A stretch of DNA of 64,000 nt from Tetradesmus obliquus (Eukaryota; Chlorophyta; Chlorophyceae; Sphaeropleales; Scenedesmaceae): assembly GCA_030272155.1 (NCBI GenBank), contig CP126204.1:2843501-2907500 (forward strand), read 5' to 3'. The notes under the pieces are model-generated. The model was not told the origin of the DNA. It saw only the letters and a list, made by a program, of their open reading frames with translations, and made no database searches. Positions 1 through 63,994 of this stretch are shown one piece after another. The position numbers and the translations under genes are program-made. Each line of letters opens with the position of its first letter. Position 1 is the stretch's first letter.

Positions 1-3000
1 CCTGCCGGGGTTTAGCAGAGGGGGCAGTGGCGGCGAGGGTTTAGGAGGGAGCGGCGGCGGCTGGCAGCTGCCGCCGAAGGTGGATGTGGGACCGCGGGGC
101 GTGGGCATCAAGGTGTTTCCTTTGCGGGGGCGCGCGGTGGTTTTCTGGTGAGTGGGGCTGCAGTTTTGACATGCCGTTCTTGTATTCTCCTCCTCCTCCT
201 CTCTCATATGATCATTATGTTGGATGTTTTCGCGGCGGAACAGCTGCTGTGATGTGGGCATCAGGGTGTCTCCTGTGTGCGGCAGGGCTGTGGCCGTTCG
301 GTGATTTGGCTGCTGCCGCTGCTGCTGTGGAGGGGTTAGTGACAAGTGCGTCCGGACAATGCATGAAGTCGCTTTTAACCACCATGGCACACTGTCGCCA
401 GCTGCGATATGTTGAGCATGCATGTTAAAGCAGCAATGTGTTAGCGTGTGCTTGCGGGAGTGACTGCTGATGGCAGCATCAAATTAATGATGTTGGTATG
501 GCGGCAGTATCCTGCTGCCGTGGCATGCTGCAGGTGTAGCCGGAATCCTCATTCTGGTGTCACTGGCAGCACGCCATGTCAGCAGGCTGCTGGTTTAGGT
601 TCCCATCACCCAGCTAGTGGCAGCTGTTATCGACCATTATTTTCTAGCAGGCGGCTGCAGCCTGCTGGCACGGCTAGCTGCCGCAGCATTCAACCTCTTT
701 CAGGATGATGACCGCAGCAACAGGCCGTGTCAGCAGGCTGTTGGTTTACAACTCAAATATAAAATCATATACATGATTGTGTTTGGGATCAGGAACATGC
801 TTAGTGTGTGCGCGCAGGCACCCCTGCTAGCATGTGCTTGCAGGAGCCCAAGCCACAGCCGGTGGCAACTGCTTCAGATGGTAGTTTGTTTGTTTGTTTG
901 TGTGAACTTACCTAAGAAGGCAGCTGCAGCCTGCTGACATGACAAGCTCCACATGGTGTCCTCGTCTTCATGATGATGACTATGGGAGCAGGCCGTGTCA
1001 GCAGGCTGCTGTTTTGATACCTGCGTAGTTTGCCAGTGTTGTTACACTGGAAACCTGCCTAGTATGTTTGTGGACAAACCACTGCTAGCATGTGCTTGCA
1101 GGAGCCACAGCTGGTGGCAGCAGCTTTGCACATGATCAAACTTGGCGGCAGCTGCAGCCTGCTGACGTGGCTTGCTGTCAAAGTTATACTGCTCTTCAGT
1201 GATCGTGGGGACTTTGACAGCGCGCCATATCAGCAGCCCGCTGAAACGGAGCCTCATAGTCTGGCAGTGTCACTGGACCGGAACCCTGCTTAGTATGTGC
1301 ATGGACAAACCGCTGCCAACATGTGCTTGCAGGAGCCGCAGCTGGTGGCAGCAGCTTTGCACATGATCAACTTTGCGGCAGCTGCAGCCTGCTGACGTGG
1401 CATGCTGTCAAAGTGCACGCTATCTGCAATGACCATGGTGGCTTTGGCAGCACGCCGTGTCATCAAGCTGCTGGCTTGAAACCTGCATAGTTCACCAGTG
1501 ATACTGGATGAGGAATGTGCTTGGTATGTGCGTGGACAAATCACTGTTAGCCTGTGCTTGCAGGAGCCACAGCTGGTGGCAGCAGCTTTGCACGTGATCA
1601 ACTTTGCGGCAGCTGCAGCTTGCCGGCATGGCATGCTGCCCCAAACTCATCAGCCCTCATGATGATGACTGTGGCAGCACTCTGTGTTAGCAGGCTGCTG
1701 GTCTGAAACCCTCGCCGGCAGCATTTCTGGCCGCAAACCTGCCCAGTATGTGCGTGGACTAGCCACTGCGAGCATGTGCTTGAAGCAGCCACAGCTGGTG
1801 ACAATTGGTATGAACAATTGATATGTAGGAGGCAGCTGCAGCCTGCTGGCATGGCATGTTGCCAGAGGTGCCTTCGTCATTCACGGGGATGACTGTGTCA
1901 GTGGGCTGCTGGTCTGAAACCTTCATAGTCTGGCAGTGTCATTGAGCCGGAGACCAATTAGCATGTGCATGGGCAAACCACGCACCGCTTGCAGGAGCAA
2001 CAGCTGTTGCAGATAGATTTCCAGTTGTGTTTTGTTTTTGGCGGCTGCAGCCTGGTGACATAGCAAGCTGCCCCAGAGTCGCCTCGGCGTCACGACGACG
2101 ACTGTTGCAGCGCGCTGCAGCCGGCTGCTGGCCGGAAACGGGTAGAGGGCGTGGAGCCCAGGGGCGCCGCCCCAGGCTACACACACCCTCTTAGCCTGAA
2201 CTTACCCAAAACCTGCAGAGCTGCCTGGGTAGTCACTCACTCACTGGCCGGAACGCTTCTGGTTTGGCTGTGCTGCTGGGCTGCAAGCCTACCTGGTAAG
2301 TGCGTGAACAAAATACTCATCTCATGTGCCTGCAGGAGCTGCTGCTGGTGGCAGCAAGTTTATAGATGATATGATTGGCAAGCAGCTCCAGCCTGCTGAC
2401 AAGGCATGTTTCTGGTCGTCCTCTGAGTTTTTCCTCTGATGACTCTGGAAGCACACCCTGTCAGCAGGCTGCTGGTTTGAACCCTCCTTCATCTGGCAGT
2501 ACTGCTGAATCAGGAACTTCTTTGTTAACAGCTAAGCATTGGCGCGCAGCACTGCTGGTCGTTATTGCAGCGAACCATAGCTGTTGTAGTTGTTTTTGTA
2601 AACAAGTGTAGTGATGACAGCTGCAGCCTGCTGATTTGGCATGCTGACATGCTCTCCAGTGTCATCCCTGGTGACAGTGGTAGCATGTCATGTCGATATG
2701 CTGCTGGTTTCGATACTCGCACCTTACTGCTGTTTACGTGATTGCACTCCTGCTGTGTGCGATGCTCTGACTGTGCTCGCAGAAACTAGTGCTAGCGTAG
2801 CTATAGCCTGTGCTTGCAGGAGCCACTGCGGGCGGCAATTTTTTTCATAGAATAGATTGTTACAAGCAGCTGCAGCGTGCTGGCGTGGCGTGCTTCTGAA
2901 ACGTGCGTCATCTCTATGATGATCAGGCTTGGCAGCATGTCATGTCAGCATGCGGCCAGCTAAACTTGGTCTGCTGTCCAGTGTGTTGCTGGAGCATGAC

Positions 3001-3657
3001 GCCTGCTCAGTCTGTGCTTGCAGGCACCAGCTGATGGCTTGTGGCTGCAGCAGCCGCTACTGGTTGCGTTGAACTGTAGACAAGTGTTACCAGGGCAGCT
3101 GCAACATGCTGATGTGTCGTGCTGCCAATGTCTGCATTGTCGCTTCAATGATGAGTCTTGGCAGCACGTCGCGCCAGCATGCGGCTAGTTCAGAAGCGGT
3201 GTAGTTCGGCAGTATGACTGGAGCAGGAACACCTCCTGCAGGCATTAGCAATGGCTGTTGCATGCAGCAGTTACTGCTGGTGGCAGTAGTGTTGTTTACG
3301 ATTGTGTCGTAGGCAGTGGCTGCGTGCTGGCATGCTATTTCCTTTGACCATGTACCTTGACATGGAGAAGGTGGCAGCACACCATGTCAGCTTGCGGCAA
3401 GTTCAAAAACATCATTAATATGGCAGTGGCCCTGCAGCTTAGGGATGGAAGGAGAGCACCTGACCTGCTGCTCTAACGCACTGTTATTGCCGCCGCCAAC
3501 GGTGCTACTACTGTTGCCGCCTTTGCCGCTGCTGCTGCTACTGCTGCTGCTGCTGCCGCTGTTGCTGCTGCTGCAGATCCAAGCGCAGTGATGACAACGA
3601 AGACCCCAACAGCATCCATGCAGCAGAAAGAGTTGCTGCTGCTGCTGCTGACACAGC

Positions 3658-3719
<62 letters not shown>

Positions 3720-7864: not shown

Positions 7865-8102
7865 ATGTGGACCAGCGTTCGAAGGGCTTTCTCTGCGTCG
7901 GGGCCGTATGATCTGAGCCTTGCAGACTGGCAGCAGTCGCTTTTCTGGGCCTTCACCGGCATCCTTGCCCTGGGGGCCTGCATCAGCAGCACCACCCAAC
8001 GAGTGAACGCAGATGTGAGTTATGTGGTATGGTGGGTCTGTGCTTCAGCTGAAGCTGGCAGCAGGAGTGATCAACAGCACCACTAGCAGCAGTACAAGGC
8101 AG

Positions 8103-8139
<37 letters not shown>

Positions 8140-11937: not shown

Positions 11938-11939
<2 letters not shown>

Positions 11940-21116: not shown

Positions 21117-21984
21117 GGCGGGGATTATGCATGTTGTGGTGCCTTGTGCGCATATGTTGGTGCGGCAGCAGCAGCTGCAGCAGTAGGAGCAACACATGCA
21201 CTCCCGAGCAGCAGCTATGCGCTGCACAGTTGCACACCCATTTGTAGAAGTATCAACCACAGGCACCGCATGACAATACACACCGAGTCACAATGAACAG
21301 CTGCAAACAGCATCCACGTGATCCATGCATGCGGAACAATCCTCCGTCATTTGCTTTGTCTGCATTACAAGGTACAACCTGGCAGATGCACAACCACAGA
21401 CGAAACAGCATTGCTGCGATCAACACTCGACACACCTGCGGAACAGTCCTTCAAGCATCTGGTCCGTCACATGTGCAGCGATGTAGCCCACATACAGGTG
21501 GCACGGGTCACTGCCTGGCGGCCCCCTGTCCCGGCCCCCGTCCCTGTCCCGCTCATGCAGGCCCAGCCCGGGCCGTCCCCGTCCCGGGCCGCCTCTGTCC
21601 CGGTCAGCACCTGGGGGCCCTGCCCCTGGTGGGTGACCCTCAGGGCCCGGCTGCTCACCGCCAAGCTCCTGCAGGCCGCCAACAAAGCAGTTTCCACAGT
21701 CATCAGAACAGCATGTACACGGGCCAAGGCATGATCCAGAATTTTGTTCTGGTGCATGTTCTGTACTCGTTCTATAATCTGTCTTGAACTGCTGCGCACA
21801 GCCACAGCTGAAGCTGTTGCTTGCACCGACCCACCATCATCACCAACCCACCTGCATGAAGCTCTTGTACTCATCATCAAAGCGGGGCATCTCCTCCCCG
21901 TGCACGCGCGCCACATCACGCCTGTACTGCTCCTCAACGGCCTCTCGCATGTGCTCAGGCAGGCGGTACACCTCCTTGTCGGCT

Positions 21985-22033
<49 letters not shown>

Positions 22034-25000
22034 GCAGCAGCAGCAACAGGAAACAGTGAGCACATGTACTGCTCCTCGACAGCTGCACGCATGTGGTCAG
22101 GCAGGTAGTGCACCCCTCGTCATCTGCGGCAGCAGAAGCAGCCAAGGCGACACCAGCACAAAGCGACAGCCAAAGCACACCCCGGGAAGCAGGGCTGAGT
22201 CAGCCGCCGGCATCACACGAATGTAGGGGCGTACTGTCACACACCCGCAGCGTGTGCAGCTTTCTTGCCAACTGCAATCTCACCGTTGACACCTGTATCG
22301 CCGCGGAGCACCTCACTCTGCTGCTTGATGAGCCAAAGCCCGAACAGCTGCTGCACTACATGCCGGCCCTGTGCAGTGTGTGTGTGCTACAAGGCGAACG
22401 CGCATGCCGCAAATGCGCACGTACCTTCTGCTGCACGCTGCGCCTCGATGACCTCGTGGTCCCGCAGTGTGCCGTTGATAGCTGCCAGCTCGCCACAAGC
22501 AGCAAGCAGCATGCATTTGATGCAAAAGCACCGTCGCTATGTGCACTAGGCAGCCGCGGCGCAAACCACCACCTACAAACTGCTCACCCTCTGCTGCGCG
22601 CTGCGCCTCAATGACCTCATGGTCCCGCAGCGTGCCGTTGATTGCAGCCAGTTCCCGCAGCTGCAGCTGCTTGTGCTCGTTGGTGGCATCATCCATCGGG
22701 GTGAGCAGCTTGGCCACCATGGCAGCACCCTGTCAAGTGGAAAAGCAGCAAAACAGCCATCAGGTGCAATCCTTGCTTCATGGCCAGCAGCGGCAGCAGC
22801 TCAATCAGCACAATGCTCGTCCGTATTGCGCATGTAGCACTTGCTTCTGGGTTGTTCGTGGGTAAAGTACATTTATCTTTGCTGTGTGCTTCATCCATCG
22901 GCGTGAGCAGCTTGGCTGCCAAAGCAGCACCATGTGGATGGCAGCAGCCGGGGCAGAGGAGGAGACACAAAAACACAAAGCCCACCTTGTCCACGCTGGC
23001 GTCGTCACGCCCAGTGGCAAGCAAGTGCAGCTCCTTGGTGCCGATCCCAGTTCAGCATCCTGCACATACCCAAAACAACTGCTGCTACGCTGGTCAAACA
23101 ATCACCGTGTCCACGTCAGCGTCGTTGTCACCAGTGACCAGCACATGCAGCTCCTTGCTGTCAATGGTGCAAAAACGACATCCGCAACGACCACATGACC
23201 TTCACATGAGCCCACCTTGTCCACGTCAGCGTCGTTGTCACCAGTGACCAGCACGTGCAGCTCCTCGGTGTCACTCGGGTCGGGCTTGCCGTCCTTGCGG
23301 CTGCGGCCCTCCTTGACACTGCCACGGCCCCTGATGGCAATCTTGCAGTTGCTCTCCTGCAAGGCGGCAGCAAAGGAAACAGCCACAGGAGAAGAAGGCA
23401 GAAGATCGGTATGGTGTAATTCACCGTGTGTTGCTGAAGGTATGATCCAGGACATTGCAGAGCCCACCACCCAGCCGCCGCACAGCACACAGCCACTACA
23501 GCGCACCAAACAGCACGCCACCCAGCACGCCACCCATCGCACCCACTCCCTGCGCTTCTGCCTGTTATCGCGCGGATTGGCGACATGCCTGATCAAGTTG
23601 CAGCCCCACAAAACACAGCCCACCAAAGCCCACCACCCAGCCCACCGGAGCAACCACGCAGCACGCCACCTGCTCCATGCGCTTCTGCGTGTTGCCACGC
23701 AGGCTGATGATGAGCCCTAGGAAGTTACAGCCCCTCATCACACATCCCACCACAGCACACCACGCAGCCCACCACTCTGCCACGATTACAGCACGCCACA
23801 GCACGCCACCCAGCCCACACCCAGCCGCCTTACCCGCTCCATGCGCTTCTGCGTGTTGCCGCGCGGGCCGATGATCAGCCCAATGAAAGTTGCAACCCCA
23901 AACCGCACAGCCCGTCACGCAGCACGCCACCAGCCCACCACTCAGCCGCCTGACTGTGCACTTACCCGCTCCATGCGCTTCTGCGTGTTGCCACGGGGGC
24001 CGATGATGAGCCCGATGAAGTTGTACCCCGGGTACTCGTCAATGGGGATGCGCAGCTTGCGATACTTCTTCTCGGGGCGGTAGTCAGCGGGCGGCTTGTA
24101 GCTGGGGTTGGCCTTGATCATCTCCGTGATCAGCTCCTGCAGGCGTGCAGCAACAATGGAAAACACATGAGTTTGATTTTGTTAGGGAGGGCGCATGCAG
24201 CTGGGGGTTGGCCTTGATCGTCTTCGTGATCAGCTCCTGCAGGGACCAGGCACAGCAATCTGCATAAAACCTATTGTTCTACTATGTGATATCGATGTGT
24301 CAATGTTGGGTCTTGTAGCTGGGGTTGGCCTTGATCATCTCCGTGATCAGCTCCTGCAAGGTGCACACGTAGTGCAAGGTAAATAGTGTCTATGTTTCAA
24401 GGGGGTTTATGCAGCTGGGGTTGGCCTTGATCATCTCTGTGATCAGCTCCTGCATGATATCAGGTGCAACAATGTATAAGTATTGATCCATGAACTGATG
24501 TCATTGTGGCTATGTAGGATGGGCTGTTGTAGCTGGGGTTGGCCTTGATCATCTCTGTGCACTGTGAGAAAGGAGATGGTTACGTGGGGTGGCACGTAGG
24601 TGATGAATAGGCAGGGTTGACATTGGCCCGTTCCATGTTTAGCTCCGGCACAGAGAGCAGCCGTCATGACACAGCTTCGCATATGCAGCAGATCTCAGAC
24701 ATACTCACATTTCTGTGCCGGACCAGCTTGTCGCGAGCGCGCTGCTCGCGCGTGTTGATGCGCGCGCCGCTCTCATTGTAGACCGGCTCAGGGCTGGGTG
24801 AGCGGCGCTCCTCTGGGGTGTCGTCCACCAGCTTGCCCTGCGCCACCAGCTGCAGCTTCTGGTTGACCTGCAGTTACAAACACAGTCAATTCTGTTACAA
24901 GCAATGACAAGATGACATGGAAAGATGTGTTGTCCACCAACTTGCCCTGCGCCACCAGCAGTGATGCTTCTGCTTGTGGTTTGTCAGAGTATTGGTTGCA

Positions 25001-27208: not shown

Positions 27209-30200
27209 ATGGAAGCCCAACAACTCACAAAGTAAGGTTTATTGGTGTTTCTGATGATGTTCAACACCTAAATGGAGCACCATGGTGCAGCAGCAGAATG
27301 AGCCGCATGTGCCATGACAGACGACTGCACCAACCACTTCACCATAGCCCCTCACACCTCTGGCTCCCATCATCGCCTTGCAGGAACAACTCTGCTGCCA
27401 AGAAGAAGCAAAAGGGCAACAAAACCGGCGGCAAAGCAAGCAGCAAGGCGCTGTGGGGCTCTGCACAGGGCTGGAAGCAGCTGGATGCTGCTGACGAGCT
27501 GCTGCTGGGTGCTGAGGAGGGCGGCTTTGCAGGACTGGAAGTGCTGGAGGATGTGAGCCTGCTGGATGCAGGTGGGTGGCGCACAAATTTATTTTCTGGT
27601 GAAGTGTTATTGGTGAACTACGATTGGATGTAGCAGTTGGGTGCTGAGGAGGGCGGCTTTGCAGGACTGGAGGTGCTGGAGGATGCGAGCTTGCTGGACG
27701 CAGGTGGGTGATGTATTGTTTGTTCTAGTTATGATGTAGGTCTTGATTTTCAAAAGACAGAGCAGTTGGGGGCTGAAAAAGGCGGCTTTGCAGGACTGGA
27801 GGTGCTGGAGGACGTGAGCCTGCTGGACGCAGGTGGGTGGCATACAATTTTATTTTGCAGGGAACTGGTGCAGTCCGCAGCAGCCGTGTGCTGAGCCTAG
27901 ATGTGTTGCAGCATCTGTACAGCTGGTGCAGGGTGCAGAGTTCACGCACTGCAGCTGCTGCACACCTGTTGCCAACATGGCTACGCACTGCTGCTGCCTC
28001 CACCATCAGGAGTACCAGTAGCAAGCCATACCAGGAAGATGCATGTGTTGCATGTGCAGAGCCTCTGCCGTTCTGCTGTCTGCATCTCATGTTGCTGTTG
28101 CCGCTGCTGCTGCTGCTGCTGTGGTGACCTGCAGACCTCCTGGCCTCCCTCAATGGTCAGGCCAAGCAGTCTTTTGACACAGATGCAGCAGCAGCAGGCA
28201 GCAAACATGGCAAGCAGTCAAAGAAACAGCAGCAGCAGCAGCAGCAGGAGAAGGCGGCACCAGGCTCTGGCAGCAAGCGCAAGCGTGGTGATGCAGCCGC
28301 AGATGCTGCTGGTGCTGCTGATGCAGATGTGGCAGCACTGAAGGCTCGCCTGAAGAAGCTGGAGGCTGAAAACAAGGCCCTGAAGAAGCAGAAGAAGCAG
28401 CCAGCAGCAGTAGCAGCAGCAGCAGGCAGTGCAGATGCTGCAGCAGCAGCTCCAGCAGCAGCAGCAGCAGCAGATGGTGAGCTTGCAAGGAAGAGCCGCA
28501 AGGAGCTTCGGGCAGAGAAGAAAAAGCAGTACAAGCTGGAGAGGCAGCAGCGGCTGCGGGAGCAGCGCGAGCAGGCAAAAGCCGCAAAGAAGCAGCAGCG
28601 CGAGCAGCAGCAGCAGCAACCAGGCACGCAGCAGGACGCTGCTGCCGCTGCTGCTGCTGATGTGGATATGAGTGGCTGGATGCGGTTCAGCCTACACCCA
28701 AAACTCGAGGCAGCGCTTGCAGCTCAAGGCTTTTCAAGCCCAACCCCTATCCAGGACGCTGTGCTGCTGCCGGCGATCAGGGATAGGCGTGATGTGATTG
28801 GAGCTGCGCAGACAGGTTCAGGAAAGACGCTGGCCTTTGGGCTGCCTATCCTGCAAGTGCTGCTGCAGGAGCAGGAGCTGCTGCAGCTGCAGCAAGGGCA
28901 CGATGCAGCAGCAGGCAATGCAGCAGCAGCAGATGCAGCAGGAGAGGCAGCAGATGGTGATGATGAGGAGGCTGTTGAAGGTGGCAAGCAGCAGCAGCAG
29001 CAGAGTAGTCCGCTGCGTGCGTTGATCCTGGCACCCACAAGAGAGCTGGCGCTTCAGGTGCGGCTTGGGGAGCAGAGCTGCTGCTGCTTGGGGAGATCAG
29101 CATTGGTAGCAAGCAGCAGCATGGGGGATGCATGACGCGGTTGCTGGTGCTGTGTAGCAGCGAGGTTTGAGAGTTTGAGCGTCGGGTGCTGCAGCTGCCG
29201 CCGCCTTGCGGCCGTGCCGCTTACGCAGTCTGCAAACTTGGTCTGTGTTAACCTCTACACAGGTGGCGGAGCACTTGCAAGCCCTGGGCAAGCATGTAGG
29301 TAGCGGTGTTGCTGCCCTGGTGGGAGGCATCGCCCCTGTTAAGCAGGAGCGTCTGCTGCGCAGCTCAGGCTCTGCACCCCTGACTCAACACCGGCTGCTG
29401 CTGCCTCCCCCTGGCTGCGAACCCGCAGGTTGCGCAGCACCTGCAGGCCCTAGGCAAGCTCGCAGGCGTCCGCAGGGCTGCTGTTCCTTTCCCAAGCACT
29501 AACGCCTCTTTCACTTTGAATCATGCAGGTGGCCGAGCATCTGCAAGCCCTGGGCAAGCACGTGGGCATCCGTGTCGCAGCATTAGTTGGTGGCATCGCC
29601 CCAGTGAAGCAGGAGCGTCTGCTGCGCAGCTCACGCTCTGCACACCCCCGACCCAACAACGGCTGCTGCTGCCTCCCCTTTGCTGCAAATGCACAGGTGG
29701 CCGAGCACTTGCAAGCTCTAGGCAAGCACGTGGGCATCCGCGTAGCTGCTTTGGTGGGCGGCATTGCCCCAGTGAAGCAGGAGCGCCTGCTGCACAACTC
29801 AGGTTCTGCACCCCTGACTCAACAACGGCTGCTGCTGCCTCCCCTTTGCTTCAATTGCGCAGGTGGCCGAGCACTTACAGGCGTTAAGCAAGCACGTAGG
29901 CATCCGTGTCGCCGCATCAGTGGGTGGCATTACCCCTGTGAGGCAAGAGTGCTTGCTGCGCAGCTCACGTTCTGCACCCCCCTGACACTCAACAACGGCT
30001 GCTGCTGCCTCTCCTTTGCTTCAATCACGCAGGTGGCCGAGCACTTGCAAGCCCTAGGCAAGCTCGTAGGCATTCGCGTAGCTGCCTTGGTTGGTGGCAT
30101 CGCCCCAGTGAAGCAGGAGCGCCGGCTGCACAGCTCACGTTCTGCACACCCCTGACACTCAACAACGGCTGCTGCTGCCTCCCCTTTGCTTTTTGCGCAG

Positions 30201-40867: not shown

Positions 40868-41266
40868 ACCGCGTGTTTGGCGGCAGCAGCAGCAGCAGCA
40901 GCAGCTGCAGCAGCAGCAGCAGCAGCAGCAGCAGTGGCGCGCGTTTGAATGAGCTGCACTGCAACAATCAACAAATGGATCATGGCTACACGCTCTTTGC
41001 ACTGCACCTGCAGGTGAGATTCAAGTGGATACTGCTTTGTGGTGTAACACACCAAGGCTCACCGTGCAGTGCATGTTGTACATTGTTTCAGCCGCATTTG
41101 CCAGCTTCTGCAGAAGCGCCAACCATTGCTGTGTGACAGGGCAGCTTGCAAATACAGCAAGGCAGCGTAGCAGCATGTGGCTACGGCCAGCATCCTCAAA
41201 TTGCAGGTGTTGATGTCTGTGATGTCAACGTGCTTGCTGCTGCTGCTTTGTGCTACAACTGTTGCC
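40868..41266. other. 3' flank of gene B
   Basis: CAG-rich directly after the stop (about 40885-40933), then no recognisable coding sequence until the helicase-derived fragment. Confidence 0.5.
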
Positions 41267-42418
41267 GCAGTCCATGGTGACGCCAAGTGACGCCTCAAGC
41301 TGGCCTGTGCTGCGGCGTGCGCTGGTGGGCCAGGCGGCCCCTCCCAGCTTCCCACTGACGACAGAGTGCTGGGCCAGTCAAAGCGGCGCGCGACGCTGGC
41401 AGCCAAGGTAAGCGTGCTGGACAGGATGCATAAATTGTAGAGGTCTGTTTTTGTCCAGGTGTTCCTGCTGCTGAATAGACGTGTCCAGGGCCAGCAGTGT
41501 GTGCTGCTGGCAGCAAATGTGAGGTGCTGCTGTGAGGAGCTGCATGCAGCTGCACTGGGGGCGAGGCAATAGCACTGCAGCGTCAGCACCCAAGGCGGCC
41601 GGCAGCAGCAGCGATGCAGCAGCAACGCCCGTCACAAGCAGCACTAGCAGCAGCAAGGGGCTGCATTGTGCAGGCAGCGAAGGTTGAGGGCTGTTGCGAG
41701 GGGCTTTGGGAAGCATGCAGCTGGCAGCGCAAGCAGGCGTGTAGCAGACTGTGTGCGATTGATGGAGCAACGGCTGTTGTTGGCAGATGCAGGCAGATGC
41801 ATAGATAGTGCTGGAGTTGTGTGCTGCTGCCTGCATGTCAGCTGTGCCGCAGGGCTAGCTCGGCACCAGCACCATAGTAATGTGCAGTTTCTGTACAACA
41901 TATATCTTTTTCACCACAGGAGTTGCTCAGCTTCGCCTCCTCCGGGTCTCTGCTGAAAGCTATGCCTCTCTGCATGCTTGCTGCGCTTTGTTTGTTTACT
42001 TGCTGCTGGCTGTTGCCGACCGTGCCTGCAGATCAATCAGCATCAGGCGTGTAAGGCGCAGCTGGCAACGCAGCTCATGATGATGTGTATTTAGAGCATG
42101 GTTGGCCAGAATGCAGCCGCAGGCGGCACGGGCGGCTTGTGAGTGCTGGCAGCAAGCGCAAGCAGCAGCAGGCTTTGCAGGAGAGCAGCAATGCTCGGCG
42201 CAAGGCTGCTGCTGCGCTGGTAGCTGCAGGAGCTGAAGACAGAGAGTTTGCATATGGCATGTACGCATGAAGTGTCTTAGTTATGTAAGGGGGCGTAGTC
42301 CAGGGTGGCATGGTGGTGGTGAGGCTTGGTGCAGTTGGGGTGCTTTTGGCAGGGATGCTGAACAGTTGCGCAAGGCGCATCTGCGCTGGATGTGCTCACC
42401 ATATGCATGAGCCGTTGC
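41267..42418 (+). pseudogene. Broken copy of the DDX24 3' end
   Basis: 41267-41409 matches exon 9 and its donor (33417-33555 region: tccatggtgacgccaagtg, with frame-breaking changes downstream). 42020-42060 matches the exon 10 opening (ctgcag then atcaatcagcatcaggcg). 42116-42232 matches about 34623-34737 ([20 protein letters not shown] region). 42302-42418 matches about 34901-35000 (GGMVVV to the MSR end). Several pieces of exon 10 are missing and frames differ, so no helicase part is made. It lies directly beyond gene B, meaning B sits between the true helicase tail and this copy. Confidence 0.88.
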
Positions 42419-50980: not shown

Positions 50981-52164
50981 GCCACCTGCTCCACGAGCAG
51001 CGCAAAGTCCAGGCCAGAGCAGTAAGGTGCTGGCCTCTTTGACCTCTGCTGTGTTGCAACCTGTCCATCCTGTTCCATGTTTTGTGCTGCAGACGGCAAG
51101 TGGCAGGGGCAGCTGTCTCTGCTGGCCTCCGGGCTGTGCCATGTTGAGGCATTCTACGACTCCATATTGTGTTGCTTCCTTACCCTCCTGTTCCATGTTG
51201 TGCTGCAGACGGCAAGTGGCATGGTCCCCTGGCTCTGCTGGCCTCCCGGCTGTGCGGTGTTGAGACATTCTATGACATATCCATGCTGCAGTATGACCTT
51301 ACCCTCCTGTTTCCATGTTTTGTGCTGCAGACGGCAAGTGGCAGGGGCCGCTGTCGCTGCTGGCCTCCCGGCTGTGCCGTGTGGAGGCGTTTTATGACTC
51401 CATGGGGGGCCTCCCTGGCTACCAGCTCAAGTCCCTGCAGCTCGTCCTAGCCGGCAACAGCAGCGCCCAGCAGCAGCAGCAGCAGCAGCAGGTGCTGGAC
51501 GCAGCCGCCGCACTCGCCACAGGCAGCCACACCCAGCAGCAGCAGCAGCAGCAAGAGGGGCTTGAAGATGCCCAGGCGCATGTAACATACCATGTGCCAC
51601 CTGGTTTAGACCTTGCAGGAGAGGCTGGTAGTGAGTTAGGTGTGAGTGCAGCAGCACAAGGGCTGCTGGCCATGCCATATCTCTCAGAGATCTTGCCGGT
51701 TGGTGGTGCTGGGGACCGGCTGGGCCTACGCTGTGAGGTCACTGGCGAGGGGCTGCCTGCGGCAATGCTGCCGTACTGTGGCCGGCCGATGATGGCGGGA
51801 CTGATACGGGACCTACAGGCGAAGGAGTACCTCTACTGGCAACTGACCGGCACACAGGTGGGTTTGGTTGCGTGTCGAGTTGAATAGTTATTACAGGCTG
51901 AATTTTTTGCTGTGGCCCATGATGGCGGTCTTGATCCGGGACCTGCAGGCAAACGAGTACCTGTACTGGCAGCTGACCGGCACGCAGGTGGGCCGTGTGT
52001 GATTCAGTGCGCTTGGTCTGGCTTTTTGAGCTGTGTCGTGACGCTTTCTTGCAAGGTGTGTGCACAGGCAACTGCTGCTGAACGTTCTGCTATATGGGCA
52101 GCGCACTACTCTTGGCACCCACAACATCACCATAACCTGCTATCACTGACTAGTCGCTTTGTGG

Positions 52165-52199
<35 letters not shown>

Positions 52200-55100
52200 A
52201 GGTGACCACCCCCGTTGCCATCATGACGTCTGATGCCAAGGGCAATCACGACCGCATCAGCAGCCTCATGGACAGTCAGAGCTGGTTCGGGCGGGCGCCC
52301 GACAGCTTCCGGCTCTTCAGGTGCGGTTGGAAGGGTTTGGGGATTCACAAACGCTCTATACAAGCATAACGACGCCTTCTGCTCTTGACAATGGTTCTGC
52401 GGCCTCCTGTCGTTGCCGTCATCCGTATGTTTCCGTCACCAATGCTGCTCATGCCTCAATGCTCGCGCTATGCTTCCCTGCTCTCATGCTTTCCGCCAGC
52501 ATTGCGCCTTGTCCTCTTTCAAATCCTGCAGGCAGCTCATGGTATCAGTGATTGACGCTGCGCATGCCGCATGCTGTGTCTGCCCCAAGTTCCCCCAACT
52601 CATGCTGTGTCTGTACCTCTGCGCCTTTTAACTTGATGCTTGCAGGCAGCCCATGGTGCCTGTGATTGATGCCGCTGACGGCCGCTGGCTGCTGACGGCC
52701 TCCTGCAAGGTCATGATGAAGCCGGGGGGGCACGGCGCCATCTGGAAGCTCATGCACGACCAGGGTGAGCATTCACACATGCTGCAAGTTTGCTTCATCT
52801 TTTGAAATATCTGGCTTGCCTAAGCAGCCATATCAGCACCTGTCAACACTCTGGAGAGCAAGTTGCATACTTCTTGCAAGGCAGTTGATGTGTTGTCATT
52901 TTTAGCCTAGAGCGGAGGTGCTGCAGTGGTTTGGCTGGCTGCTCACGGCCTCGTGCAAGGTCATGATGAAGCCAGGGGGGCACGGCGCCATCTGGAAGCT
53001 CATGCACGACCAGGGTGAGGATTGGTGCTTGCTGCAAGTTTGCTTCTTCTATTGATATATTTGGATGCTTAAGCAGCTATAAAAGCGCCTGTCAACAGTC
53101 TGGAAGGGTACGTTGAATATTTCTCACAAGGCAGTTGAAGTGTTGTCCTTTTTAGCTTAGAGCGGAGGTGCTGCAGTGGTTTGGCTGGCTGCTGACGGCC
53201 TCCTGCAAGGTCATGATGAAGCGGGGGGTGCACGGCGCCATCTGGAAGCTCATGCACGACCAGGGTAAGAGGGGTTGGCAAGGAGATGCTTGAACTCTCC
53301 TTGTTTTGAGTGCGGCGGCAGCAGCGGGGCCGCCTGGCCAGCCGCATCCCGGATGCTAGCGGCGCTAGGCGAGCACTGACACGACCTGCCGCTGCTGCTT
53401 CTGCTACATTGCTGTCTCAGTTTGTATCATGCTTTGGCCTTGTTTTACGGCCTGCAGCAGCAGGGACAGCATCATTCACACACATCCATCCGTGCTGACA
53501 CCAGTTACCGCTGCCTGCCGCTGTCTTGCCTGCTGCATCTTTCTCTCCTGCAGGCGTGTTTGACTGGCTGCAGCAGCAGGGCCGTCTGGTCAGCCTCATC
53601 CGCCAGGTCAGCAGTATTAAACACTACCTGCGCTGTGCCTCCTTTGCTCTCAACTCGTCCATCCTGCAGGCGTGTTTGACTGGCTGCAGCAGCAGGGCCG
53701 CCTGGCCAGCCTCATCCGCCAGGTCAGCAACCCCATGGCGGGCTGCGACACCACGCTGCTGGCGCTGGCGGGCAGCGGCTTCAGCGCGCGCCGCGCGTTT
53801 GGCTTCATGAGCTGCGAGCGCGTGGTCGGGGCGGCGGAGGGCATGAACGTGCTGCAGGTGGGTGGACAATGCAGTGATAAAATAAGTGATACAAAATAGT
53901 TATGCAAATGGGGGTTCAATTTATCATTATCTGCTGGGTGGGCGGTGTTGGGCTTCATGAGCTGCGAGCGCGTGGTTGGGGCGGCCGAGGGCATGAACGT
54001 GCTGCAGGTGTGCTGGTGGTGCCGTGTGGGAGGTTGTCATTCTGCGGCTGGGACTCCTCGTTTGTCACTGTGCTGCGCCCTACATATTGTATTCTTGTGC
54101 CAGTCGTTGTAGTCTTTGGCTCAAAGGCGGCTGCCAGCAGCACAGCTCCACTCCAGCTGCGTGAGATCACCAAAACCCACCGCCCATAGCGAACAAATGC
54201 ATTTCTGTTATATACGACGTTACGACCTGTAAGCGCAGGAGCGCAAGGTGTGGGTGGAGGATGCCTCCCTGCCCAAGGGCGGTTCCTGGCAGTTTGACTA
54301 CGCCATCACCAACGTGGTTTACACCAAACTGATTGTTTCACCGTTGGTTTCTGCTTGCAACAGCGCAAGGTGTGGGTAGAAGATGCCTCGCTGCCTGAGG
54401 GCGGCTCCCAGCAGTTCGACTACGCCATCACCAACCGTCAAGTACTTACAACTGACAACTTTGTTTGTTGTGTCATGACTCATGCTTGCAGGAGCGCAAG
54501 GTGTGGGTGGAGGATGCCTCCTTGCCCGAGGGCGGCTCCTGGCAGTTCGACTACGCCACCACCAACGTAGAACACACCGAACTCAACGCAATCATGACAC
54601 TGTCATACTTTGTGCCTGCAGGAGCGCAAGGTGTGGGTGCAGGATGCTTCGCTACCTGAGGGCGGCTCCTGGCAGTTTGACTACGCCATCACCAGCCGTA
54701 TAGTACACCAAAATCTAACGCAGCCATGACACTGTCATACTTTTGTGCCTGCAGGAGCGCAAGGTGTGGGTGGAGGATGCTTCGCTACCTGAGGGCGGCC
54801 GCTGGCAGTACGACTACGCCATCACCAACGTAAAGTACACAAACTGAAATGATTGTTCACTGTTCTTTGCTTGCAGGAGCGCAAGGTGTGGGTAGAAGAT
54901 GCTTCCCTGCCCAAGGGCGGCTCCTGGCAGTACGACTTCGCCATCACCCACGTGAACACCAAAATGATTGTTTCACCGTTGGTTTCTGCTTGCAGGAGCG
55001 CAAGGTGTGGGTGGAGGATGCAACTTTACCTGAGGGCGGTTCCTGGCAGTTCGACTACGCCATCACCAACGTGGAGTACACCGAGTTTGAGCGCCTAGGC

Positions 55101-57973
55101 ATCACCGACCAGCCAATGCACGAGGGCAGCAGCCACAGCGCCTTCCCTGCAAACACGAACATTCTGTATGTGGGGCTGGCGGCTGCGCGTGCTGCTGTGG
55201 AGGCGGCGGTGGCGGCTGGCGGGGGCGAGGTGATGCCCGGGCTGATCTTTAACCTGAAGAAGAAGGTGAGGCGGCTGCTGCTGCTGCTGCTTGGTTTGTG
55301 GCTTGTAATTGTTGTGTGCAAGTGTGCTGGCGGCGGCGAGGTGATGCCTGGGCTGACCTTCAACCTGCGATACACAGGCGAGGCTGGTTCTGCTGCAGCT
55401 GCTGCTGCTGCTGCTGCTGCTTTGTTTGTGGCTTGTAGGCCATGCATATGCTGGCCATTATCATCTTGCCGTGCGCTCTCTACAACGGCAATCTGAGGGC
55501 TTGCTAGCTTGGTTGCATTGTGCATGGCGAAATCAAACAGTGTTCTCCTCAACTCTTGTTGTCACTGCTATGCACATTTTTCCCGATGTTTTGAACTTCC
55601 AGGTGAAGTCATTTGACCCTTCATCCAGGAGGAGCGTGAAGTTCACACCGCAATCCCCCTTCTGCGTGTTTTCACCTTCCTGCACTCTTCTTCTCATTTG
55701 TCGCAACTTCCAGGTGAAGTTCTTCGACCCATTCATCCAGGAGGAGCGTGAAGTTCGCGCCGGCCGCATGGAGTGCACTATGCAGAACCTGGCAGACTCC
55801 CTCACCAGCCGCAGCGCAGCAGCACTGGCTGGGCCGGGCGCAGGCCCTGGGGCTGAGCAGGCGCTGATGGAGCGGCTGAGCACCTTCATGGTCTACAACA
55901 TGCGCCGCAAGGTGGGTCATTGGGTTGTTGCTGGGTTGGTTTGCTGTGAAGTGGTCACTCAGGAGCCTGCAAGTAGGCTGCACACCCGTGTGTGCTGTTT
56001 GCATGGGACGCTGTGTGCTCTGGCAGCTGGTGTGGGGCACGGTGTAGGTTGCGGTTGAATGGATGGGTTCAAGTGATGCAGTGATGCGCAGCAGCGCTGG
56101 CCGCGCCGGCTGCTGGCCCTGGGGCTGAGCAGGCGCTGATGGACCGGCTGAGCACCTTCATGGTCTACAACATGCGCAGCAAGGTGGGCAATATGTTGTG
56201 CTATGTTACTGTTACTTTGGAGTTTGCTGCTGACAGTCGTATGTGATGCGCATGGTAGTCTGTGTTCTGCAGCTGCACGTACCACGTGCGTTGCAATGTT
56301 GCATTGCGAAAAGGAGCGTCGTGCGCAATTTGATCAGGAATCAACTGCCGCTTGTTCTCTAGCGCTGCACCTGCAGCACTGCTTGGCAGGCTGCCTTCTT
56401 GGCCTCACCAAACTGCCGCCACCACCACTGCTGCTGCTGCTGCCAGGTCACGTCCTCTGCCAAGAAGAAGCGCGACCCGCGCAGCAGCCACATCCACCAG
56501 ACGCCTGAGGGAGCCTTCTACGACCTGCAGCGCAACGCATGGCAGGTGCGGGCCTGTGTTTTCTGAAGGTGGAGGGAGCTATATATGTCTGTGATTATGC
56601 ATGTGCAAGTGGGTGCTCATCACTACATCAAAAGTACCCAGATTTGCTGCACGCGTGTGCGCTGTATGTGCCTCTCCGGCACATCCCGACTTGCAGTTGC
56701 ACCCTTGCGTGCTCTTCTTATAACCTGGAAACATCTCCCCGGATGTGGCTGTGCAGGTGCTGCAGCGCTGCGGCATGCGGCACGTGCCGCCAGTGGGTGA
56801 CGTAGCCGAGTACCTCTCACGGGGCCCCGGCTTCATCTTCCTCTTCCACCCTTGCTGACATAATCTTAAATCATATCGTTTCGCTGCCGTGCTGCAATGC
56901 TGCGGCATGTGCCACGACCTCCCATCCGGTGATCAAGCATGTGACGCGCTCTTGAAAGCTTGTCCTGTCCGCTGCAATCCATACCTTTTCCTGCAGGTGC
57001 TGCAGCGCTGCGGCATGCGCCACGTGCCGCCAGTGGGTGATGTGGCCGAGTACCTCACTCAGGGGCCCGGCTTCATCTTCCTCTTCCACCCAGCACTAGG
57101 CCCCCTCTGGGATGTTATTTCCCAAAAGATCCGCGGCGGCGCACTGCTGGACGGCTCAGAGCTGGTGCTGGAAGTTGCAGAGGCACGGCTGCTAGATGTA
57201 ACAGTGGATGGAAGCTTACTCATCCATGCAGACAATGTGATGGGCCACCAGGAGCAGCAGAATGCGGCAGATGCCGGCAGCAGCAGCAGCAGCAGGCTGC
57301 AGTATAGTGCGGCCAACGGGCGCGTGCACCTGATGAACGTCACCGTGCAGAACGTGGGCGTGGATTGGCACCACCCGGGCAACTGCTACTGGCAGCACCG
57401 CGTGAACCGACACGAGGCGTGCAGGGTGGTGCTGCACGGGCGCAGCGAGTTTGAAGCATACGACTGCAAGATCAGCGGCGACCAGGTGGGTTGTGAACCT
57501 GTGTTTGTGTTGGTGTTGTAGGTTTGTTGATGGAATATCTGTGTTGGCAGAATGCAGTCAGGGTGTGGGTAATAGCACCTCACGTTTTGCACATATGTGT
57601 TGCTGCTCTACCAGCTCTAGCCTTCAAACAACCACCCTCCATGCCGATGCCCACATGCGCATGCACCCGCCATGCCTGACATCATGCTGCTGTGTTTTGC
57701 ATGACTTCCACTTTGCTGCAGGTGTTTGAGGTGCCAGACGGCTTCCGCATGGTCGTCACAGCAGCAGGCAGCGCGGGCGGTCTGTCCGTGCAGCTGCTGC
57801 CACTGCAGGGCGACAAGCCCACCTGGCAGTGGGCCTACAGCATGGAGCCGTCTGGGGCCCTGCAGCTGCAGTTTGTGCGCAATGCAGCACTTGACCTATG
57901 GAGCTCCCCCGTGCTGGCTGCGGCACGCAGCCGGCAGCAGAATGAGGAGGAGGTGCTCGACTTTGTCATCTAG
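49628..57973 (+). CDS. UGP3: UTP-glucose-1-phosphate uridylyltransferase 3-like (plastid UGP3)
   Basis: Twelve exons: 49628-50044, 50302-50354, 50675-50784, 51331-51857, 52202-52320, 52646-52764, 53670-53857, 54996-55265, 55714-55911, 56447-56545, 56997-57485, 57722-57973; 2841 nt, 946 aa, GT-AG and in frame. Plant UGP3 makes UDP-glucose in the chloroplast stroma for sulfolipid (SQDG) synthesis. Conserved landmarks: VAIMTSDAKGNHDR, GGHGAIWKLMHDQGVFDWL, QVSNPMAGCDTTLLALAGSG, AFPANTNILYVGL, GRMECTMQNLADS, VYNMRRKVTSSAKKKR, IHQTPEGAFYDL, FLFHPALGPLWDV, VDGSLLIHADNVMG, VDWHHPGNCYWQHRVNR, VFEVPDGFRM. The Ser/Gln/Arg-rich N-terminus fits a transit peptide. A CAG-encoded Gln insert lies in exon 4. 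Exons are flanked by up to six partial copies of their edges. Substrate is inferred from the family. Confidence 0.93.
50836..50874 (+). repeat. Downstream partial copy of UGP3 exon 3 3' edge
   Basis: Resembles cacgtgctcatgatgcctcc of the exon end, then gcag and gtgggc. It ends 90 bp past the real donor. Confidence 0.7.
51093..51330 (+). repeat. Two upstream copies of UGP3 exon 4 5' edge
   Basis: Openings at 51093 and 51209 (real 51331; steps 116 and 122), each after tgctgcag, encoding DGKWQGQLSLLASGLCHVEA and DGKWHGPLALLASRLCGVET. Confidence 0.93.
51913..51987 (+). repeat. Downstream copy of UGP3 exon 4 3' edge
   Basis: Encodes PMMAVLIRDLQANEYLYWQL then TGTQ, followed by gtgggc; the exon has PMMAGLIRDLQAKEYLYWQL. 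It ends 130 bp past the real donor. Confidence 0.93.
52532..53264 (+). repeat. One upstream and two downstream copies around UGP3 exon 6
   Basis: Upstream: opening at 52532 (QLMVSVIDAA; real 52646 QPMVPVIDAA). Downstream: copies of the WLLTASCKVMMKPGG to HDQG segment end at 53014 and 53264, exactly 250 bp apart from each other and from the real end 52764, each with a gtgagg or gtaaga donor. Confidence 0.92.
53554..54007 (+). repeat. Upstream and downstream copies around UGP3 exon 7
   Basis: Upstream opening at 53554 (GVFDWLQQQGRLVSLIRQVS), 116 bp before the exon; older remnants may lie near 53310 and 53450. The downstream copy 53950-54007 encodes GFMSCERVVGAAEGMNVLQ plus a gtgtgc donor. Confidence 0.92.
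54239..54995 (+). repeat. Six upstream copies of UGP3 exon 8 5' edge
   Basis: Openings at 54239, about 54363, 54492, 54622, 54755 and 54877; the real exon opens at 54996. Steps are about 119-133. Each encodes a variant of ERKVWVEDASLPEGGSWQFD then YAITN, then becomes intron. Most keep a TTGCAG or CTGCAG acceptor; that at 54363 is degraded. Confidence 0.95.
55325..55378 (+). repeat. Downstream copy of UGP3 exon 8 3' edge
   Basis: Encodes GGGEVMPGLTFNLR, like GGGEVMPGLIFNLKKK at the exon end. Donor sequence is not kept here. Confidence 0.8.
55603..56183 (+). repeat. Upstream and downstream copies around UGP3 exon 9
   Basis: Upstream opening at 55603 (like the exon opening at 55714, with a small deletion, 111 bp before). 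Downstream copy about 56100-56183 of the GPGAEQALMERLSTFMVYNM segment with gtgggc donor. Confidence 0.9.
56757..56996 (+). repeat. Two upstream copies of UGP3 exon 11 5' edge
   Basis: Opening at 56757 (VLQRCGMRHVPPVGDVAEYL, near-identical to 56997, 240 bp before) and a decayed copy at about 56888-56940. Confidence 0.9.
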
Positions 57974-60572: not shown

Positions 60573-62466
60573 ATGTCTCCGCCAGATGCAGCAGCAATCC
60601 CCGACCCTGTGGCATACGACTCCACCTGGTACCTCGAGAAGGTGGACAAGATCGGCCAGAAGGTCAAAGCTGCTCCTGCTGCAGCAGCAAACGTTGGGTT
60701 TGCAAAGGAGACGGAGGCAATCCCGTGAGTAGATAGCGCAGCTGTGTCATCAACGTGACCTCGAAGTTATTTATGGATGCGTTATCTGCTGGATAGAAAC
60801 TAGACTTATGGCATAGGCATTGTATGGCCAGGCGCATTGATGTTGCAGATGCTGCTGCTGCACATGCAGCCTGAGCCTGCCAGGCAGTTGGCAGCCAGTT
60901 CCCTGCCGCGCCAGCATCATTGATAACAATAACCATGCAACAATAATAACAACAATAATAACAACACATTGAAGACAGCCAGCTATGTGCTGCAGCCTGC
61001 ACTGCAGGGTGATCCAGCATGGCATGTCGTTGACTTGTACTGCAGGCTGCGGTTCTGCTGGCATCCCAAGCTATTGAGGCACTCCCGGCCTCCCATGTGT
61101 CGTGGCCATTTTGATGCTTTAGTCCCCCGCAGATATCCTGGCTGCCTGACCTATCGCTGCTGTTCCTGCTGCTGCTCTTACTCCTGCTCTACCCTGCTCC
61201 CTCCTCCACACCATCTGCCACACAACCTGCAGGCACAGCGGTCCCCAGGGCAAGGTCGTGCCGCTGACCATCATCGACGACCCCGCCGACTGGCGCGCGT
61301 CCGAGTTGAAGCCCGCGGATTACACTTATCACCTGAGCCCCGCCGAGGTGGCGGAGCTCATCGCGGCCACCGAGGCCATCCTGGCGAGGAGCGTGAAGGA
61401 CGAGGAGGACATCAAGAAGGTGAGGCTGCGGGTGCAGCAACCAGCACAGATCGGAGCGGTATATCATCTTATGTTTTAACAGCACGTTTTCGTAATGCAT
61501 GTCATCAGCTTGCCGAGTAAAAGTGGCTGAGGGTTTGGAATCCCAGCCAAACCCTAATGACAGATACCTGCCATTCTGCTGTCCTGCACGCCAAGCAACA
61601 GATGAGCAAAGGTACCCATAGAATGTCATGCTATCACATGAGCTCGTTCACAAGGCTGACTTTCAATATGCCGTATTGTCCGCTGCAGTTGACAGCCGCT
61701 GCTGTCTGCACTAGGTGCCTCTGATGGCTTCAGCTTGGTGTAGCTGCTCACACACACAATCATGTGACCCCTTTTCTTCTGTTGCTGCTGCTGCCGCTGG
61801 TGCTGGTGCTGCTGCTGGTGCTGGCTGCTGCTGCTGCTGGCTGCAGCTGACGCGCGAGGACTACCACCTGCCCACGCTGGGCCCCAAGCTCATCGAGCTG
61901 GCTGACAAGGAGGTCACCAACGGCCGCGGCTTCCTCATCATCAAGTGAGCTTGTCATGCGACTTTTTGATTGAACAGGCCCTTACTAAGGTGACCTGGTG
62001 ACCAGGCCTACCTTTGCCCTTGTCTGGCAAACCACAAGCAGAACAGCGTGAGGTTGAGCAGGGTTAGCAGCTGCTGGCGCATGGGGCTTGCAACTAGTAT
62101 GCAATGCATGCACAGCCCAGCCGAGTTCAAGTGCGTTTAATCAGGCGCAGCCCGGCTAGGATTGAGAGAGCAGGTAGCTATATCTAGCCATGCTACCTGA
62201 GGCAACAAAGGCAGGCATGCATGTTGACAGCCAGCTTGCACGCATGCGCACATCACATGGCCTGTGCTTTGCCTTTGGCTTGGCAGGCTGCTACTGTGCT
62301 GCAAGCTGCTGCTGCTCATTGCTCTGGTTGCTCACCTTCTGTAACCTGTACCTGCTGCTGCTGCTGCCGCAGGGGCTTCCCCGTGCAGCACTTTGTAAGC
62401 AACCGTGCCGGCCTTGTGGTGGCCTTCTGGGGCTGGGCGCTGCTGCTGTTTGTCCCAGCACTCACA

Positions 62467-62529
<63 letters not shown>

Positions 62530-62617
62530 AGGGGCTTCCCGTGGAGCACTTTGCCTCCAACCGTGCCGGCCTTGTGGTGGCGTTCTGGGTGCTGCTTCTC
62601 TTTGTTTGAGCCACTCA

Positions 62618-62656
<39 letters not shown>

Positions 62657-63747
62657 GCTGCTGCAGGGGCTTCCCAGTGCAGCACTTTGCCTCCAACCGG
62701 CCCGGCCTTGTGGTGGCGTTCTGGGGCTGGGCGCTGCTGCTGGGCCGCGTGCAGATCAGCCAGACCGACTGGAACAGCAAGGGCGAGGTGTTTGGCTCCA
62801 TCTTCAACCACGTCACCGTGGGACGCTTTGCTGACAGTGAGCTACTGAGCTGCTAGTCTATTTGTGTTTTTGAGGCGTACTGCAGGCTGCACTGCGACCA
62901 GCTGCGCTGGCACTCGGCTTCATCTGTAGTCATGTCACTGTGGGGCGCTTTGCTGACGGTGAGTGGCGGGGCTGCCAGTTTTTGTTTTGAGGCTTACTGT
63001 AGCCTACAGTGCGACCAGCTGCAGTGGCACTTGCCTTCACCTGTAGTCATGTCCCTGTAGGGGGCCTTAGCTGATGGTGAGCGTCAGGCTGGCGGGCGCT
63101 GCGCTGCAGACCTGCGGGCAATATGTGGACATGTGGTGCACCATGATGTGTCGGCGTGACAGCTGCAATGGCGGTGGAGCGAGAGTGTAATGGTGACTTA
63201 CCTGCGTGGTGCTACATTGCAGCTCTTGATCGCATCAAACGTGACAATGCTGCCGCCGCCACTGCTGCTGCTGCCGCCGCCGCCACTGCTGCTGCTGCTG
63301 GCTGCAGTGTACACGGAGCCTCACAACGAGTACACCAAGAAGGGCGATGACAAGAAGCTCTCCTTCCACAGCGACCAGGTGAGGCAGCAAATTGCAACTT
63401 GTTTAGGCTTATGTATGTTGGTATTGCTATGCTTCTCAGCTTCAACCTGAGGTAAGAGGTTCAGAGACAGTAGAGTGATGGTGAGAAGCTCTCCTTCAAG
63501 AGCGACCAGGTAGGGCAGCCCCTGAATTGGAAAGCGGGTGTTGTATGTTGCTGTCGCTATGCTTCTCATCTTCCAACTTCGAGTTCGTGCTGTGAGCGAG
63601 AAGTAGCACAGAAATGGTACCAGCTGTGTATAGAGTAGCAGGGATGGACATTGTGTGCTCGCAAGGTCAACAGCCGCCTGTTTATGCGGAGGTGTGCAGC
63701 CGCAGTTACACAATGTCATACACATCTAGCCCCTGTTGCTGCTGCCA

Positions 63748-63799
<52 letters not shown>

Positions 63800-63994
63800 G
63801 CCACCGCCGTCAGGGCGCCACTCACCTGATTGCGCTGCTGTCGCTGAGTGCTGCCACGCTGCTGCTGCTGCCGCCGCCAGGGAGCCACCGACCTGATTGC
63901 GCTGCTGTCGCTGAGTGCTGCCAAGGAGGGCGGCGAGTCGCAGCTGGTGTCGGCCATCACCATCCACAATGAGCTGCTGCGGCGCGGGCGCAAG
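60573..63994 (+). CDS. TauD/TfdA-family Fe(II)/2-oxoglutarate dioxygenase (3' end outside window)
   Basis: Exons 60573-60724, 61233-61419, 61847-61944, 62667-62836, 63308-63378 and 63881-63994, with a further donor (gtgcgc) at the window edge. At least 264 aa, GT-AG, in frame. Landmarks: HSGPQGKVVPLTIIDDPADW, LTREDYHLPTLGPKLIELAD, NGRGFLIIKGFPVQHF, then YTEPHNEYTKKG and LSFHSDQGATDLIALLSL, SQLVSAITIHNELLRRGRK. This matches the TauD branch where H-x-D (here His223-Ser-Asp225) binds iron; the distal His and 2-oxoglutarate-binding Arg would lie right of the window. Family members oxidise small organic acids or amino acids; the substrate is not predictable. No clear organelle signal. CTG tracts precede the acceptors of exons 3-5, and exon-edge copies flank exons 4-6. 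Confidence 0.85.
62373..62666 (+). repeat. Two upstream copies of TauD exon 4 5' edge with CTG tracts
   Basis: Openings at 62373 and 62532; real exon at 62667 (steps 159 and 135). They encode GFPVQHFVSNRAGLVVAFWG and GFPVEHFASNRAGLVVAFWV. Each is preceded by a CTG tract ending in CAG (62469-62531 is the longest), so tract and exon edge were copied together. Confidence 0.95.
62935..63076 (+). repeat. Two downstream copies of TauD exon 4 3' edge
   Basis: The exon ends HVTVGRFAD with donor at 62837. Copies end at 62958 (HVTVGRFAD) and 63076 (decayed), each followed by gtgag; steps are 122 and 118. Confidence 0.9.
63483..63509 (+). repeat. Downstream copy of TauD exon 5 3' edge
   Basis: Encodes EKLSFKSDQ with a gtaggg donor, compared with KKLSFHSDQ at the exon end, 131 bp downstream. 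The iron-ligand His is replaced by Lys in the copy. Confidence 0.88.
63814..63880 (+). repeat. Upstream copy of TauD exon 6 5' edge
   Basis: Encodes GATHLIALLSLSAA after a CAG acceptor; the exon at 63881 has GATDLIALLSLSAA. The step is only 67 bp, the shortest seen. A CTG tract at 63749-63798 precedes it. Confidence 0.92.

Follow-up and report, generated by a model that had tools for sequence, protein, structure and literature searches.

Polarised copies of exon edges in the introns of Tetradesmus obliquus, within and beyond a 64-kb window

The stretch of the Tetradesmus obliquus genome analysed in this study (64,000 nt, positions 2,843,501 to 2,907,500 of contig CP126204.1, assembly GCA_030272155.1; hereafter the window) contains genes for a DDX24/MAK5-like helicase, a UGP3-like protein and an SF1/BBP-like protein, as well as a gene that a first-pass annotation made from the sequence alone had named TauD, and partial copies of the exon edges of all four lie next to the exons concerned (Table 1). 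No Pfam match was found for the gene model that includes exon 62667-62787, the first-pass TauD gene. The helicase was 100% identical to T. obliquus OEZ86_008600 over 69% of the searched region, from which the sequenced strain is probably that of the OEZ86 proteins. The UGP3 model, which includes none of the copies, was 98% identical to T. obliquus OEZ85_004516 over its whole length and aligned through all of its exon joins with proteins of Scenedesmus 46B-D3, Raphidocelis and Chlamydomonas. Since both models are open and that of UGP3 aligns through every exon join, the copies in their modelled introns are outside both proteins.

Table 1. Modelled genes of the window and the copies associated with them (window coordinates)
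Feature	Position	Strand	Remarks
SF1/BBP-like gene exons, KH domain	21852..24136	-	KH-I_KHDC4-BBP 3e-22
SF1: 10 edge copies	between 22065 and 24559	-	
DDX24/MAK5-like DEAD-box helicase gene, nine exons modelled	27384..34916	+	0 stops over joined exons; DEAD domain
Helicase: two downstream copies, 3' edge of exon 27384-27571	27638..27832	+	
Helicase: seven upstream copies (one partial), 5' part (103 nt) of exon 30369-30599	29263..30302	+	
Helicase: exon with 5' part copied upstream and 3' part copied downstream	30369..30599	+	
Helicase: spacer between exon 30369-30599 and its downstream copy	30606..30692	+	single match in genome search
Helicase: downstream copy, last 129 nt of exon 30369-30599 plus GTGGGT	30693..30827	+	100% identical over 135 nt
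Helicase: upstream copy, 5' edge of exon 31229-31698	31107..31147	+	
Helicase: downstream copy, 3' edge of exon 31879-32029	32206..32280	+	
Frameshifted fragment copy of helicase 3' end, ~7.5 kb downstream	41258..42402	+	
UGP3-like gene, 8 exons modelled, first exons outside the model	51331..57485	+	669-aa model, 0 stops
UGP3 exons	51331-51857, 52202-52320, 52646-52764, 53670-53857, 54996-55265, 55714-55911, 56447-56545, 56997-57485	+	
UGP3: two upstream copies, 5' edge of exon 51331-51857	51093..51276	+	unit about 118 including intron part
UGP3: downstream copy, 3' edge of exon 51331-51857	51914..51987	+	edge only
UGP3: two downstream copies, 3' edge of exon 52646-52764	52934..53264	+	period 250; flank of outermost copy dissimilar
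UGP3: upstream copy, 5' edge of exon 53670-53857	53554..53613	+	
UGP3: downstream copy, 3' edge of exon 53670-53857	53947..54007	+	edge only; spacer matched once in genome search
UGP3: six upstream copies, 5' edge of exon 54996-55265	54239..54954	+	spacing about 120-130
UGP3: downstream copy, 3' edge of exon 54996-55265	55326..55367	+	
UGP3: upstream copy, 5' edge of exon 55714-55911	55603..55650	+	
UGP3: downstream copy, 3' edge of exon 55714-55911	56086..56183	+	spacer matched once in genome search
UGP3: upstream copy, 5' edge of exon 56997-57485	56757..56851	+	
First-pass TauD gene: two upstream copies, 5' edge of exon 62667-62787	62373..62589	+	

Our analyses confirmed that the exon-edge copies are real and extend well beyond the window. 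Comparison of the window with itself by BLAST revealed 104 repeat pairs. Of these, 99 were direct, and the 5 inverted ones were all between one paralogous gene pair. Exons were called with a small gene finder trained on domain hits, and each exon of at least 60 nt was then compared, with low complexity masked, to 1 kb on either side. At this strict threshold the four genes yielded 38 edge copies, 28 on the plus and 10 on the minus strand, whereas the 65 to 70 copies counted in the first-pass annotation included weaker ones and were spread over six genes. The two further genes are not in our models: the prolyl hydroxylase domain match just overlaps the left edge of the window (about 1-190), and for the gene at 5135 the self-BLAST returned two sets of local direct repeats (5552/5780 and 6693/6873). 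Beyond the window, we sampled the genome (104.66 Mb in 17 contigs) through the 30 best of 92 matches to PF00271 (12 contigs), representing helicases, and through 18 ABC-transporter loci from 21 matches to PF00005, L054, L062 and L063 being excluded because they overlap neighbours. In loci L007-L041, five of which are 10-kb stretches, repeat pairs of at least 30 nt numbered 140 in direct and 6 in inverted orientation. The 196 exons of the helicase loci and window genes gave 104 same-strand matches, compared to 5 in an unrelated-locus null, and no reverse-strand match; among the copies that overlap no other predicted exon, all 44 of 3' edges were downstream and all 42 of 5' edges upstream. The 81 exons of the ABC set gave 29 same-strand and no reverse-strand matches, including 14 edge copies in four of the 18 loci, again all on the expected side.

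In total, 99 distinct partial copies were identified, of which 52/52 3'-edge copies are downstream and 47/47 5'-edge copies upstream of their exons, with none inverted. The total is 99 rather than 100 because locus L034 is inside the window and one copy was thus repeated; L034 also enters its exons and introns twice in the exon search, the repeat classes and the intron lengths. The polarity is as the first-pass annotation had called it, including its argument that this is the arrangement selection must leave, and its expectation of a process wider than the window was borne out in two gene families, with copies in 21 of 48 loci (17/30 helicase and 4/18 ABC) on nine contigs. The number of copies is a lower bound, as L023 has 16 direct pairs and none counted, and the upstream copy of exon 53670-53857, whose start was modelled at 53690, is not among the 99. 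Also outside the 99 are nine internal matches in the helicase and window set, placed by exon half according to the same polarity, and nine that overlap another predicted exon, among them two 3'-edge matches located upstream, against the polarity rule, and three of full length. The ABC set has 12 overlapping and three internal matches of this kind, and its four full-length matches, all in L051, seem to copy the 3' edge of exon 2761-2916 and to have been miscalled as exons by the gene finder. No full-length copy was found among those that overlap no other predicted exon, the three and four full-length matches being in overlaps. Copy number in the 30 helicase loci was uncorrelated with GC content at third codon positions (Spearman 0.11) or median intron length (0.10). 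On the window's own contig (C14), copies were present in 7/8 loci compared to 14/40 elsewhere (Fisher p 0.015, a post hoc comparison).

The median intron length was 535 nt where copies were present (47 introns) and 266 nt where they were not (178 introns; p 7e-17). Copies from both ends were found in 9 of the 225 introns, which is above expectation (odds ratio 6.1, p 7e-4), an excess that gene-to-gene differences could also cause, and in 9/9 the first exon was followed by its own copy, then by the copy of the second exon and finally by the second exon itself. At 15/23 junctions the copy nearest the exon was more identical to it than the other copies were on average, at five it was less so and at three there was a tie (p 0.04), which suggests that arrays grow from the exon side. 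Edge specificity and, more weakly, this age order both favour the first-pass proposal that introns grow from their edges. Nearest spacings peaked at 110-135 nt (27/63) with a second cluster at 250-272 nt (11/63), and the repeated edge was 23-151 nt long (median 53.5). At multi-copy junctions in unrelated genes the step was often about 100-135 nt, for example in L030 (100, 207, 327, 445).

Frameshifts or stops were present in 12/100 copies and absent from 88, and spacings were not multiples of three (37/34/29 for the three remainders). In the first set of 86 copies, the first, second and third codon positions had 109, 67 and 270 differences, respectively; silent changes predominate, although replacement changes are common. 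The splice dinucleotide carried by the copies was intact in 39/44 donors and 36/42 acceptors, which by our estimate is about the neutral expectation at 92% identity, and there is therefore no clear sign that decoy sites have been either removed or retained. The copies look like degenerate relics, and for that reason alternative or mutually exclusive exons are an unlikely explanation for them; the lack of any full exon outside the overlaps, the spacing and the 12 disrupted copies likewise led us to judge it improbable.

A tandem unit that crosses a splice junction must repeat its intron part as well. This was assessed for the nearest copy at 61/63 junctions by sensitive local alignment between the spacer and the sequence flanking the copy. 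Intron homology was detectable at 30/61 junctions, or 34 counting four that passed a fixed-window flank test alone, and among 32 apparently edge-only cases a trace of homology was seen in 10 versus 1.6 expected. These intron parts, together with the strict polarity and the arrays, are what would be expected under the first-pass explanation, in which simple tandem duplications arise across the splice junctions of a single chromosome and are then filtered by selection. However, in 20/31 edge-only cases, 11 of them with 95-100% exon identity, a search of up to 400 nt gave no significant homology, and several copies have silent differences only. In addition, the direct repeats of at least 90% identity, surveyed over intron (59.7 kb) and exon (53.7 kb) sequence from the genome loci, comprised 41 at junctions, seven exonic, five between copies and none purely intronic, although 10 less similar pairs (mean identity 84%) were confined to introns. 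If duplication were random and filtered by selection, recent purely intronic duplicates should be found; the same 41 versus 0 was the basis on which random minisatellite growth was rejected. Tandem duplication across the junction is therefore partly supported, in that it leaves about half of the junctions unexplained, and as a complete account we consider it unlikely.

The abrupt end of many copies raises another possibility, that copying is targeted to exon edges and bounded by the splice motif, for example through repair from nascent pre-mRNA with splicing factors shielding its ends. Donor copies matched the exon flank at +1 to +5 with identities of 0.98, 0.91, 0.84, 0.61 and 0.80, and then fell to background (0.23-0.45 from +6). 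The motif is weak evidence of copying past the exon because unrelated donors of the genome share most of it; edge-only donor copies exceeded those chiefly at +4, +7 and +8. Motif-bounded copying would also accommodate the finding that all three spacers of edge-only copies tested had one genome match each, in a search that may miss repeats. Nevertheless, a similar boundary would be expected wherever two functional exon ends adjoin unrelated introns, intron parts are present at about half of the junctions, and local placement and orientation favour DNA-DNA templating, so that we regard this mechanism as very unlikely.

The helicase array at 29263-30302 has a period of about 168 nt, with the intron part repeated too, and most of its copies differ from the exon mainly at silent sites (11 silent and no replacement differences in copy 29529); judged from the sequences, the helicase copies appear to group by mainly silent changes. 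No intron homology was detected for copy 30693-30827 beyond GTGGGT. Identical exon parts with unrelated introns, as in this copy, could be accounted for by old tandem duplications whose exon parts were kept alike by gene conversion while the intron parts drifted. Such conversion would also produce reticulate arrays, and incompatible site pairs were indeed found (34/66 in the helicase and 19/36 in UGP3), to which recurrent mutation could contribute. Under conversion, however, duplicates internal to introns should stay alike too, and none was at 90% identity. In addition, mismatches were unclustered (36 copies, Kolmogorov-Smirnov p 0.67), which led us to reject patchy conversion, and conversion in general seems to us improbable. 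We also rejected the idea that the 5' and 3' copies of an exon abut at one point, which is the case for the helicase exon only and not for the other exons with both.

Several copies have signs of a template that had diverged from the present exon. The copy in L021 has 13 silent differences and one replacement difference in 50 codons, while its intron part differs at 25/111 sites, a pattern like that between two working alleles. The UGP3 copy at 52945 and that in L036 each have two silent and no replacement differences, with intron parts differing at 27/168 and 16/59 sites, respectively, although these are small numbers. The middle copy in L018 has six silent and no replacement differences from the exon in 18 codons, and on our reading, of these six sites, the outer, decayed copy matches the exon at four and the middle copy at one. 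Overall, silent versus replacement differences were 86:25 in copies with a related intron part compared to 66:56 in edge-only copies, taking the nearest per junction (p 2e-4). At 9/37 differences, versus 1.4% expected, the residue in the UGP3 copies is that of the other T. obliquus strain or of Scenedesmus 46B-D3, the nine representing three sites, one counted six times. An assembly in which two haplotypes were mixed would likewise yield exon-bounded direct repeats with silent differences. However, an artefact of that type does not fit copies with stops, frameshifts and many replacement changes, seven different copies in one array, or 38 copies in four genes of a window that has no N, and it is the explanation to which we give the least credence.

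The copies are direct, local, polarised and bear the splice motif; they form arrays, those nearest the exon tend to be the most identical and many are degenerate. The origin we tentatively favour, while placing it somewhat short of an even chance, is recurrent junction-anchored duplication during break repair, with a template that is either the sister or, sometimes, a homologous copy carrying another intron. Breaks near exon edges would trigger the repair, and the broken strand could re-prime in the exon and recopy the exon edge and the start of the intron. With the sister chromatid as template, the whole unit would be tandemly duplicated, whereas with a homologous copy that has a different intron, such as a diverged haplotype, just the exon edge and splice motif would look duplicated. 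Selection would then keep only those outcomes in which the intact exon is outermost and the copy is inside the intron.

A number of our results weigh against this break-repair explanation, and in particular against the involvement of a diverged template. The intron part in L018 differs at only 5/66 sites compared to 6/18 third positions, and because of this mismatch of rates no single divergence time fits. The 66:56 ratio of the edge-only copies is nearly an ordinary decay spectrum, and the silent divergence of their template looks small despite the unrelated introns. A diverged template is also difficult to square with the copy at 30693 and its 135 nt of 100% identity. The one DNA search able to reveal a second haplotype of these genes showed none, and copies that share a junction are not independent. 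A diverged haplotype as the origin of all copies was rejected, given the low silent excess of the edge-only copies. A more ambitious reading, which we consider rather unlikely, is that an edge-targeted and still active process copies exon ends and splice motif into the adjoining intron, often from another haplotype and stepwise in units of ~110-135 nt, which would make introns largely fossil records of exon boundaries and lost alleles.

Other repeats were encountered in the course of these analyses. The fragment copy of the helicase at 41258-42402 has two exon stretches 89-92% alike and a third 78% alike to the helicase, with introns mostly unalignable, and holds an edge-copy-like repeat of its own at 41485-41555. 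Near the gene at 5135, a 30-bp tandem repeat (5990-6566; 19 copies, 98% identical) has a unit length that is a multiple of three and one frame open. Degenerate tandem repeats of ~230 bp past the prolyl hydroxylase domain match (646-3188) are apparently non-coding and seemingly not exon-edge copies. A pair of paralogous head-to-head genes, at 10618-15198 (-) and 35860-40864 (+), is 71-80% identical in matching stretches, with weak beta-helix and TRP-like matches; unlike the neighbouring genes, the pair had no local direct repeats of at least 35 nt in the self-BLAST. Outside the window, L041 (1-10000; C10:3000001-3010000) consists of a tandem repeat with a period of 3,682 bp, 100% identical and with no Rfam match at gathering thresholds, and in L040 degenerate tandem repeats that are 73-78% alike cover roughly 2 kb (7905-9953). 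Three paralogous ABC transporters (L044, L045 and L046; C3 7.75-7.81 Mb) have exon stretches 76-94% alike, most of their introns being unalignable and matches mostly stopping within about 10 nt of splice sites.

Change in intron length is usually attributed to transposons and small indels. In T. obliquus, the introns with edge copies are ~2-fold longer, their growth is directional and a range of ages is visible, and a comparison of strains would therefore bear on junction duplications as a driver of intron length. Further questions concern how the spliceosome ignores stacked decoy sites and what input recombination between diverged haplotypes may have. In algae, intron sequence is added genome-wide by introners, families of repeated elements whose insertion creates a short target-site duplication of fixed length. 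Unlike these, the three T. obliquus spacers tested matched the genome once each in a search that may miss repeats, which led us to reject an introner family for those three, and the repeated edge is 23-151 nt rather than short and fixed. Repair of staggered or paired-nick breaks in plants produces tandem duplications and short direct repeats, sometimes with flanking filler DNA. Those duplications involve short filler and are not known to be tied to exon edges, unlike the T. obliquus copies. Among the open-licence papers listed in our literature searches, as judged by titles and the opening parts of abstracts, we found no description of exon-edge copies in algal introns. In Drosophila, novel introns have arisen by tandem duplication of coding sequence, and there too one exonic copy turns intronic; those cases concern new intron positions, whereas the T. 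obliquus copies are inside modelled introns between conserved exons (PMC2891723). The closest precedent we found is the potato RdRp gene, in which a direct duplication spans an intron-exon boundary and the splice signals are inherited from the parental boundary, as in T. obliquus (PMC4974935). In potato RdRp, however, one event gave one new intron, whereas in T. obliquus existing introns have been extended at many junctions, in multi-copy arrays and with an intron part that is unrecognisable at about half of the junctions (PMC4974935).

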